Assembly: GCF_001306145.1 (NCBI RefSeq)
Contig: NZ_LGKO01000002.1
Coordinates: forward strand, 186,001 to 250,000
Length of the DNA stretch: 64,000 bases
Source of the DNA: Thermanaerothrix daxensis
GTDB taxonomy: Bacteria > Chloroflexota > Anaerolineae > Anaerolineales > Anaerolineaceae
Direction: 5' to 3'
Positions 37,153-39,949 of this stretch are shown in pieces. Made by a program: the position numbers and the translations under genes. The notes under the pieces are model-generated. The model was not told where the DNA came from, searched no databases, and saw nothing but the letters and a program-made list of their open reading frames with translations. How positions within the stretch are numbered: position 1 is the first letter of the stretch; each line of letters opens with the position of its first letter.

Positions 37153-37869
37153 ATGAACATCCTGGCGGTCAGTGATGTGGAACTTGGGTTTATCTACGAC
37201 GCGAACATTGTGAACCGTTTTCGCCACATTGATCTGGTGATCAGTTGCGGCGATCTACCCCATTATTATCTCGAATTCATTGTTAGCATGCTGAACCGCC
37301 CGTTGTATTACGTATTGGGCAATCACGTTAGTAAGACTGAGGTGGGGGTAGGAGGTGAACGCCGGGCTCCCTGGGGGGCTATTAATCTGCATCGGCGCGT
37401 GATTCGCACGCCGGAGGGTTTGCTACTGGCCGGTATTGAAGGGTGCTTGCAGTATAATTACGGGCCGCACCAGTACTCTCAGGCCGAGATGTGGGCGCTG
37501 GTGCTGGGGCTGGTGCCGGGCTTGTTAATCAATCGCCTGATTTACGGGCGCTACCTGGATATTTTTGTCACTCACGCGCCACCCTGGAAGATTCACGATT
37601 TGGACGATCGTCCGCATCGTGGCATTAAGGCTTTCCGCTGGCTGATTGAGACCTTTCAGCCGGCATATCATCTGCACGGTCATGTGCATGTTTATCGCAA
37701 TGATATTCCCACGGTCACCCGCGTGGGTAAAACTGTGGTGATCAATGCTTATGGGTATCGAGAGATAACCTATGAAGTGCCGGCTCCACGGCCATGGTTC
37801 TGGCAGCGGCGCGTGGCACAGGAGGCTCTGCATGAGCGAAATACCCCCTCGGGACGAATCACTGATTGA
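37153..37869 (+). CDS. Metallophosphoesterase
   Basis: A 238-residue calcineurin-like phosphoesterase. The metal ligands are in LAVSDVELGFIY (residues 4-15), CGDLPHYY, LGNHV, VTHAPPWK and the double-His LHGHVHVY. The substrate could be a cyclic nucleotide, a phospholipid or a phosphoprotein; sequence does not decide. A start at 37120 is possible but adds a poorly conserved tail. It overlaps the ParB-like gene by 38 nt, indicating co-expression. Confidence 0.88.
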   Translation: MNILAVSDVELGFIYDANIVNRFRHIDLVISCGDLPHYYLEFIVSMLNRPLYYVLGNHVSKTEVGVGGERRAPWGAINLHRRVIRTPEGLLLAGIEGCLQYNYGPHQYSQAEMWALVLGLVPGLLINRLIYGRYLDIFVTHAPPWKIHDLDDRPHRGIKAFRWLIETFQPAYHLHGHVHVYRNDIPTVTRVGKTVVINAYGYREITYEVPAPRPWFWQRRVAQEALHERNTPSGRITD

Positions 37870-38800
37870 GCAAATCGCCAAAGCCGATTTTGAGGCGGCA
37901 TTGCGCAAAGGCTTCTGGCGTTCGGTACTTTCGTGGTTTTCTCAATCCAGCAACCGCCTCTTGCCTTTCGATGAGGTACGGGCCCGCCTTCCAATGCGCG
38001 GCCAGCGTTACATCGGTCTGAGAGAAGTCCCCATTGAAAAGATCATCGGCAGTGTGGGGCGTTATCAGGATTTTGACCGGGCTTTTCTGCCACGTCATTC
38101 TCGCACAGCCTCGCGCTGGATCAGTATTGACGCGGCTCATCTCCAGGAGATTGACCTCCCGCCAGTGGAACTCTATAAAATTGGCGAGGCGTATTTTGTG
38201 AAGGACGGCAATCATCGCGTTTCTGTGGCGCGGGAACGGGGCCAGAAATTCATTGATGCCTACGTCATTGAAATTGACACACCGGTTCCCATTGATGAGC
38301 ATACCGACATTGATGAGTTGATCACCCTGCATGAGAAGGGAGAATTTTATGCGAAAACCCAATTGGATCAACTCCGTCCCGGCGCTAAAATTGATCTGAC
38401 ACTGCCCGGCCAGTATGCCAAATTATTGGAACACATAGATGTACACCGCTACTTTATGGGCTTAGAGCGTGGGCAGGAAGTGCCGTATGAAGAAGCGGTG
38501 ACGTCCTGGTATGATGAAGTTTACCTGCCTCTGGCGCGGGTCATTGAGGAGGCCGATTTGCTGAAAGAATTTCCCGGCCGGACGGTGAGTGACCTGTACT
38601 TATGGATCATCGAACACTTGTGGTATTTGCGGGAGCAATACCGCCGTGAGGTGACTCCTGAAGAGGCGGCCAATCACTTTCGTGAGCAGTTCGGAGGGGC
38701 GAAGTCAGCCACGCCCCTTGGGGTGTTGCGCCGCCTCTTTCAGGGTTTAGCGGTCCATTCGGATCCATCTCCTTCTTCGAAGGGAGATCCAGCGGACTGA
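37832..38800 (+). CDS. ParB/sulfiredoxin-like domain protein (DUF4032-like)
   Basis: A 322-residue soluble protein. Residues about 110-160 carry a ParB-like segment (VELYKIGEAYFVKDGNHRVSVAR) with the Gly-Asn-His-Arg motif found in ParB N-terminal and DUF4032 proteins. The C-terminal half is helical, with VTSWYDEVYLPLARVIEEADL and LWIIEHLWYLREQYRREVT as distinct segments. AGGAGG precedes the ATG at 37832. No HTH or centromere-binding domain is seen, so it is not a chromosome partition ParB. Function unknown; it is coupled to the phosphoesterase. Confidence 0.7.
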   Translation: MSEIPPRDESLIEQIAKADFEAALRKGFWRSVLSWFSQSSNRLLPFDEVRARLPMRGQRYIGLREVPIEKIIGSVGRYQDFDRAFLPRHSRTASRWISIDAAHLQEIDLPPVELYKIGEAYFVKDGNHRVSVARERGQKFIDAYVIEIDTPVPIDEHTDIDELITLHEKGEFYAKTQLDQLRPGAKIDLTLPGQYAKLLEHIDVHRYFMGLERGQEVPYEEAVTSWYDEVYLPLARVIEEADLLKEFPGRTVSDLYLWIIEHLWYLREQYRREVTPEEAANHFREQFGGAKSATPLGVLRRLFQGLAVHSDPSPSSKGDPAD

Positions 38801-38810
38801 CCGAGCGCGG

Positions 38811-39065
38811 CTATCCTTGCATAGATGGAGCAGGGTCACCCAGTTCGAGCAGGCCCAGCCAGAGGTGATTACGGAGCACGCGCCGGTTGGTGCGTACCTC
38901 GATTTCGTTGACTTGCATTCGTTCTTGTCCAAGCATGCTGGGATGAACGTAGCACAGGTTGGGGCGAATGCCGTATTTCTTTTGGTAATAGTCCGCCGCG
39001 CGGTGGACTTTGGTGCGCAAATCGGCTTTGGGATCATCGTCATACCAGAGCATTCCCATTTTCAT
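38811..39065 (-). CDS. Small conserved-looking protein in the LexA-box operon
   Basis: An 84-residue soluble protein: MKMGMLWYDDDPKADLRTKV, then AADYYQKKYGIRPNLCYVHP, then NEIEVRTNRRVLRNHLWLGL. It reads like a compact alpha/beta domain with a strong N-terminal strand and a Cys-Tyr-Val-His-Pro strand. Similar small proteins occur, as far as I recall, in other Chloroflexota, but no function is known to me. GAGGTG precedes the ATG, which begins 4 nt after the stop of the FtsK-like gene, so both are made from the LexA-box promoter at 39.9 kb. Confidence 0.75.
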   Translation of the reverse strand: MKMGMLWYDDDPKADLRTKVHRAADYYQKKYGIRPNLCYVHPSMLGQERMQVNEIEVRTNRRVLRNHLWLGLLELGDPAPSMQG

Positions 39066-39068
39066 GCT

Positions 39069-39869
39069 TCACCTCATTCGTGCAATTTCGGGCAGCCAGA
39101 GATGGATCCATTGGCCCTGGCTGCGTAAACTGAAACAACGTGTTTGGGGTAGAAATTGGCTCAGTGGGTTCTCAGGAACACTAAAATGCTTTTTTTGCGC
39201 GGAGCTCAAATCGGCTCCCCAGATGAGGGTTCGAAAGCGACGCAACCATCGCAACAAGTGAGTCTCCGTTTCGGTCGTTGTTGCCACAATGGGCCAGATT
39301 TTCTGCGCCGGCCCATAATGGAGCAGGTGCTCAAAGGCCCATATGGCTTCGTGATCGATTTGAAGAATCCATTCTAACTTGTCAATCATGAGGACGACTG
39401 AGGGGCCATTCCATCGCCCGTGTTGGCGAGAATCGGAAAGATCGGCGAGTTCGAGTAGCCGGGTTTCTAAATCCCGCTCAAATGGATTTATCACGCGTTC
39501 CAGAGGATGAAGCGAGGGGGTTTTAGTATCAGTTGCCCGGAATATCTGCAATGAAAAGGGAGCATTCGCCACCTGTAAAGATTGGCAGATGACGTCTAGC
39601 ATCTCAGATGAAGTGGAGGTCTGAGCGGCAATGACTAATAATGCCCCCGGTGATGGATTGCGAAGATCAAGCAACAACGGGATACCGTCCTCACATACTC
39701 CCAGGAGAGCCGTTTCGTGACTTATAAAGGGCAACCCGGCAAGCACCTCGTGCAGGTTGGGTAGTTGCGCCTGAATCCGATCGGAGGTGAAGGATTGAGG
39801 GGGAAGTGGAATCTCTCCGGTTGCAACCATGGAAGAGCCAATTTGATATTTCTGGGTCAGGACGGTCAT
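39069..39869 (-). CDS. FtsK/HerA-like protein lacking Walker A lysine, under a LexA-type operator
   Basis: A 266-residue protein resembling the ATPase core of FtsK-like proteins. The region LLLDLRNPSPGALLVIAAQT continuing STSSEML stands where Walker A (GxxGxGKS) is expected, but has no GKS/GKT. The Walker B-like strand VVLMIDKLEWIL, LHYGPAQKIWPIVATTTET and RRFRTLIWG follow in the FtsK order. It is therefore probably a non-hydrolysing relative. ATG at 39869 is preceded by AAAGGAG; a longer frame upstream starts inside the promoter. The promoter contains an SOS-type palindrome, suggesting DNA-damage induction; a SulA-like or checkpoint role is a hypothesis. Confidence 0.7.
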   Translation of the reverse strand: MTVLTQKYQIGSSMVATGEIPLPPQSFTSDRIQAQLPNLHEVLAGLPFISHETALLGVCEDGIPLLLDLRNPSPGALLVIAAQTSTSSEMLDVICQSLQVANAPFSLQIFRATDTKTPSLHPLERVINPFERDLETRLLELADLSDSRQHGRWNGPSVVLMIDKLEWILQIDHEAIWAFEHLLHYGPAQKIWPIVATTTETETHLLRWLRRFRTLIWGADLSSAQKKHFSVPENPLSQFLPQTRCFSLRSQGQWIHLWLPEIARMR

Positions 39870-39920
39870 GGTTTTCTCCTTTTGTCGTATCGAAGCCATT
39901 TCTTTATAAAGGGCTATTTC

Positions 39921-39949
39921 AGTATAACAGAACATTTGTTCTAATACAA
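39921..39949 (-). promoter_or_regulatory. Promoter with LexA-type palindrome in the spacer
   Basis: Minus strand TTGTAT (39944-39949), 17-nt spacer, TATACT (39921-39926). The spacer contains AGAACA-TT-TGTTCT (39929-39942 on the plus strand), a perfect 6-2-6 palindrome that matches the GAAC-N4-GTTC core of Gram-positive LexA/DinR boxes. A repressor bound here would block RNA polymerase directly. Confidence 0.75.

Follow-up and report, generated by a model that had tools for sequence, protein, structure and literature searches.

An operon of an FtsK-derived gene and a small conserved gene under predicted LexA control in Thermanaerothrix daxensis and its relatives

The window analysed here, a stretch of 64,000 nucleotides of the Thermanaerothrix daxensis genome (contig NZ_LGKO01000002.1, positions 186,001 to 250,000), contains on its minus strand a two-gene operon in which a promoter is followed by the gene for a 266-aa protein and then by the gene for an 84-aa protein that we refer to as p84 (Table 1). 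The spacer between the -35 and -10 hexamers is 17 nt long and contains the box AGAACAAATGTTCT, with the core GAAC-N4-GTTC that characterises Gram-positive-type LexA operators. The six-base arms match perfectly and the central dinucleotide lacks self-complementarity, which leaves 12 of the 14 box positions symmetric. The promoter, palindrome and two-gene operon described in a first-pass annotation are all confirmed from the sequence, with the correction that the palindrome is perfect in its arms only. The full 14-mer, AGAACATTTGTTCT, is unique in the genome of 3.01 Mb. Comparison with the same-genus genome G113 indicates purifying selection on both genes, with dN/dS values of 0.13 for the 266-aa gene and 0.03 for the 84-aa gene. 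The convergent neighbour at window positions 37772-38800 has a match to DUF4032 (E 2.6e-7) and belongs to one cluster that is present in 8 of 21 loci.

Table 1. Coordinates of the operon and its promoter elements, given as positions within the window
Feature	Position	Strand	Basis
-35 hexamer TTGTAT	39944..39949	(-)	sequence, by eye
LexA-type box AGAACAAATGTTCT within promoter spacer	39929..39942	(-)	sequence; kept in 29/29 family operons at <=1 mismatch; lexA same layout
-10 hexamer TATACT	39921..39926	(-)	sequence, by eye
Ribosome site AAGGAG	39876..39881	(-)	sequence 5' of ATG
266-aa protein derived from FtsK/SpoIIIE; AAQTSTSS in place of Walker A	39069..39869	(-)	
84-aa protein p84 (label of this analysis), no known family, model pLDDT 90	38811..39065	(-)	

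The lexA and recA genes of the same genome carry corresponding boxes. The lexA promoter reads TTGACA-TA-GAACATACGTTC-CTC-TATAAT, which is the layout of the operon promoter, and at recA the sequence GAACATAAGTGC, with one mismatch, abuts a TATAAT hexamer. The first-pass annotation had made its SOS proposal depend on the motif being found at these two genes; it is present at both, and the pattern repeats in relatives. Among the own genome and 30 relatives picked among genomes having the operon, with L136 and L163 left out of both counts for want of upstream sequence, a lexA box with at most one mismatch precedes 29/29 genes with upstream sequence (19 of them perfect), and a recA box of the form GAAC-N4-GT(A/G)C precedes 26 of 29 genes and is absent from the other three. 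The recA boxes (L056, L138-L166) deviate alike from the core and are perhaps a weaker operator that overlaps or abuts the -10 hexamer.

Conservation of the box before the operon itself was assessed in the 300 bp upstream, using 29 of the 31 loci of the host family (L087, which shares a contig with L058, and L083, which has a short upstream region, were dropped). All 29 family operons, including that of the own genome, have the box with at most one mismatch, compared to a best of 17/29 and a mean of 3.6 among 255 alternative palindromic half-sites; when mismatches are disallowed, it is found in 15 of the 29, and the best other half-site in two. At least two boxes at this level of one mismatch are present in 20/29. 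A similar picture emerges from FtsK plus p84 operons elsewhere in the class (58 of 60 loci, L183 and L200 being too short), where a perfect box precedes 38 operons (best other half-site, 5) and a box with at most one mismatch precedes 46 (best other, 25). Eleven of the remaining 12 lie behind lexA, whose promoter carries a perfect box, and in the twelfth (L197) a perfect box overlaps the start of its match. Within the upstream sequence fetched (up to 4 kb), 31 of the 60 class loci have lexA immediately before the unit, next to ftsK or, in the case of L244, next to p84 itself. Of twenty loci from other classes, 14 show a perfect box at a distance of up to 350 bp and six do not, with a best other half-site of 3. 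In a control stretch 3' of p84 the box appears in 1 of 84.

The box does not stand out by its frequency. The core GAAC-N4-GTTC occurs at 33 places in the genome, as does a reversed control, and when anchored to a promoter it gives 9+7 matches against 13+11 for the control; the longer motif AGAAC-N4-GTTCT, for which a scan had been suggested by the first-pass annotation, occurs at four places against three for its reversed control. Of the other 32 core sites, a mechanical test places seven outside long frames. The significance of the box lies in its position and conservation, and not in a genome-wide count. The lack of enrichment speaks for a palindrome that matches by chance, or that serves a different regulator, and for an operon outside the SOS regulon, but the conserved place of the box in all 29 family operons, its presence at lexA and recA, and the linkage to lexA in other families make this highly improbable.

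The boxes at lexA and recA and the conservation in relatives support the SOS assignment, and on sequence grounds the operon very probably belongs to the LexA regulon, with LexA/SOS control as the prediction. It is like known LexA/SOS regulons in its operator core, in the placement of this core between the -35 and -10 hexamers, and in the occurrence of the same operator at lexA and, with the one mismatch, at recA. It is unlike them in that the targets here include p84 and an FtsK-derived gene, and in that the genome has no match to the Y-family polymerase family PF00817, whereas 11 of the 14 control genomes do have one. We also considered an ImuA/ImuB-type error-prone-polymerase cassette, which is not favoured, given this absence of PF00817 and the lack, by clustering, of a recurrent third operon gene around 21 loci.

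The relationship of the 266-aa protein to FtsK becomes apparent through its relatives, which 54 of the 147 host-family genomes encode. A profile of 27 of these (27 of the 31 loci, with L068, L074, L079, and L087 left out) matches the FtsK/SpoIIIE chain 4nh0 with an E-value of 5e-11 and EccC5 with 2.5e-9; lower-scoring matches to Rho and magnesium chelatase are expected of P-loop proteins. PF01580 is matched by 13 of the 27 members (E up to 1; best 2e-7), and by its sequence relationships the protein probably descends from an FtsK/SpoIIIE-type motor. The window protein is unlike the FtsK/SpoIIIE motors in being short, in having no membrane domain (by eye), in having no Pfam match of its own, PF01580 included, and in lacking a Walker A motif, and the FtsK-like character claimed for it in the first-pass annotation is borne out via the relatives and not via the window protein alone. 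Of the 27 relatives, 13 retain the Walker A GK and 14 have lost it, and in the window protein, where its absence had been pointed out, the place indeed reads AAQTSTSS. Since the motif is absent, this protein is a derived relative and not a working member of the FtsK/SpoIIIE group. The missing motif, on which emphasis had been put, reflects loss within this family and does not characterise the system overall; loci of other families in the class (L197, L212, L219) encode a longer motor that retains Walker A. In class loci L212, L219, L221, L246, and L256 the motor gene is separated from p84 by the gene for a small conserved protein with likely membrane helices and an RMSxEAMAVVVG-like motif (both by eye).

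Of the 31 family loci, 29 have the p84 gene behind the FtsK-like one, and the other two end at a contig edge. The p84 gene is present in 147 of 396 genomes sampled from the class and in 85 of 400 sampled from the phylum, 56 of the 85 being outside the class. Several chromosomal neighbours recur around the operon in 21 loci, namely an M16-like pair (19), an AcpS-like gene (18), and a metallophosphoesterase gene (17), the first two being named by eye; the possibility that the window copy is a mobile element is not favoured, since such neighbours recur in most of the 21 loci. Judged from these sequences, the operon is old. The 60 class loci were taken down the E-value list of p84 matches, some being skipped by hand, and the class tally covers the 85 of 90 loci with enough upstream sequence. 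Of these 85, 42 have an FtsK-like gene and a perfect box, 20 have an FtsK-like gene without a perfect box nearby, eight lie at mraY/murD and have no box, and 15 are near neither FtsK-like nor mraY/murD genes, seven of them boxed. Among the 20 other-class loci, which were hand-picked from the 56 p84-matching genomes outside the class, no FtsK-like gene was recognised near p84 in 19.

The eight loci at mraY/murD, from families f13 and f56, place a p84 paralogue in the division/cell-wall cluster; both neighbours were recognised in six and murD alone in two. None of the eight copies (0/8) is preceded by a box, and four f13 genomes carry an FtsK-linked p84 besides the mraY/murD copy. An additional 25 contigs of a viral collection encode p84 without an FtsK-like gene upstream, and none of these 25 has a box within 800 bp upstream; some of these genes lie near ParA-, ParB-, or Cas4-like genes, as judged from clusters read by eye. 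The own genome contains a paralogue of the 266-aa protein (L033, C1:606381-607031; 37% identical) in a mobile-element-like region, and the protein next to it resembles, by eye, one adjoining p84 on the viral-collection contigs. Long frames round p84 in distant genomes at first looked like fusions; no recognisable partner was seen in them.

Scans of the two window proteins against Pfam, NCBIfam, and PHROGs gave nothing usable. When folded from its single sequence p84 gave a pLDDT of 44 and this model was discarded, but a model from 24 aligned sequences (omitting L260, which is identical to L259, the over-long L280, and the divergent L282) has a pLDDT of 90 and a pTM of 0.79, with one long helix and five strands. 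A fold search of the PDB with this model gave a best E-value of 0.91, the best structural alignment was to the HK97 capsid (Z 4.7, rmsd 5.1 over 78 residues), and the best match in BFVD was a viral protein without a name (E 0.014); none of these matches is reliable. The protein looks soluble. The first-pass annotation had put its emphasis on the FtsK-like protein, whereas the 84-aa protein is the more conserved component and is probably the core of the system, although the effector need not be the component that is conserved best.

The gene context points to a checkpoint of division or of DNA translocation as a plausible role for the operon, and our best guess, at nearly an even chance, is that p84 and its operon form a damage-induced brake on septation. 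In the undamaged cell, the conserved sites and general knowledge of the SOS response suggest that LexA would sit between the -35 and -10 hexamers and block the polymerase. Upon damage, RecA activated on single-stranded DNA would induce self-cleavage of LexA and both proteins would be made, with the FtsK-derived protein as partner or targeting platform of p84, the presumed effector. The pair would then act at the septum and, until repair is complete, hold back septation, the synthesis of septal wall, or the passage of the chromosome, as SulA, YneA, SosA, and SidA do in other bacteria. Having lost Walker A, the motor of the window's genus could serve at most as a scaffold or a DNA- or septum-binding module; other families of the class would pair p84 with an intact FtsK-type motor, in some accompanied by a small, probably membrane-bound protein, and often adjoining lexA. 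A role at the septum is favoured by the mraY/murD paralogue, the FtsK partner, and the lexA neighbourhood. More broadly, and tentatively, at somewhat below even, we suggest that p84 may be the damage-checkpoint effector of much of the phylum Chloroflexota, as a soluble SOS division inhibitor of a new family that is paired in the Anaerolineae with an FtsK-type motor, which in some lineages has decayed to a Walker-less scaffold, and of which a paralogue has settled in the division/cell-wall cluster.

Several observations weigh against a division brake, since FtsK-type motors serve segregation and transfer too, the mraY/murD copies are boxless, p84 has neither a target signal nor a fold match, and the viral-collection genes have neither an FtsK-like neighbour nor a box. 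The operon could instead encode a damage-induced factor for DNA translocation or for repair and segregation, in which the motor shifts DNA, or clears it, at the septum or at breaks, p84 is its adaptor, and division goes unblocked; in the window lineage the motor would then be a passive DNA-binding one. The intact Walker A motors of other families (L197, L212, L219), the GK retained by 13 of the 27 family members, and the ParA-, ParB-, and Cas4-like genes near some viral-collection copies are consistent with this, but the motor appears dispensable, with p84 lacking an FtsK-like neighbour in 19 of the 20 other-class loci and being retained where Walker A is gone in 14 of 27 family members, and we regard this reading as unlikely though a serious contender.

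Alternatively, p84 could modulate the SOS response itself in the manner of DinI or PsiB, which act on RecA filaments or on LexA cleavage. DinI-type RecA modulators are about 80 aa long, linked to the SOS response, and found on phages too, and p84 is like them in size, in its SOS link, and in its possible occurrence on phages, being a small protein under LexA-type boxes, with lexA neighbouring, and encoded on viral-collection contigs as well. It is unlike them in the Pfam scan, in which the 28 p84 members aligned (of 29 sequences) match five Pfam families and DinI is not among them; this reading also leaves the FtsK partner and the mraY/murD copies unexplained, and we consider it unlikely.

For a brake on septation the closest comparison is with the SOS division inhibitors SulA, YneA, SosA, and SidA, which are small, lineage-specific, and SOS-induced and vary among bacteria, with YneA, SosA, and SidA being membrane proteins, according to two publications (PMC9578287; PMC13396833). 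Because such inhibitors differ between bacteria, a lineage-specific one would be unsurprising here. The likeness of p84 to these four proteins rests on regulation and context, and unlike YneA, SosA, and SidA it looks soluble. The p84 scans gave no family match to any of the four. SulA, with which the first-pass annotation had drawn a parallel, was not among the matches listed for the window proteins or the family members (for the 266-aa family, 25 of 30 families), though distant kinship could escape such scans; the parallel is an analogy only.

In the open-licence literature we found no described Chloroflexota SOS regulon, lexA-ftsK operon, or p84. The finding provides a predicted Chloroflexota SOS operator and a recurrent target gene that has no family name, together with a series of similarly controlled motors, from intact FtsK-type ones to one that lacks Walker A. 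It opens the damage checkpoint of a large and little-studied phylum to direct testing.

Two other sites in the own genome deserve mention. Near C2:594531 (L292) the sequence GAACTAATGTGCTATAAT, a recA-like box abutting a -10 hexamer, precedes a frame that by eye is lytic transglycosylase-like, and this is possibly a second SOS-controlled cell-wall gene. At C3:171467 (L053) the sequence AGAACTTTTGTTCT lies just past a TATAAT hexamer and before a 177-aa frame with a LuxR-type HTH (by eye), which adjoins a thioredoxin-like gene on the opposite strand and is a candidate for another SOS target.
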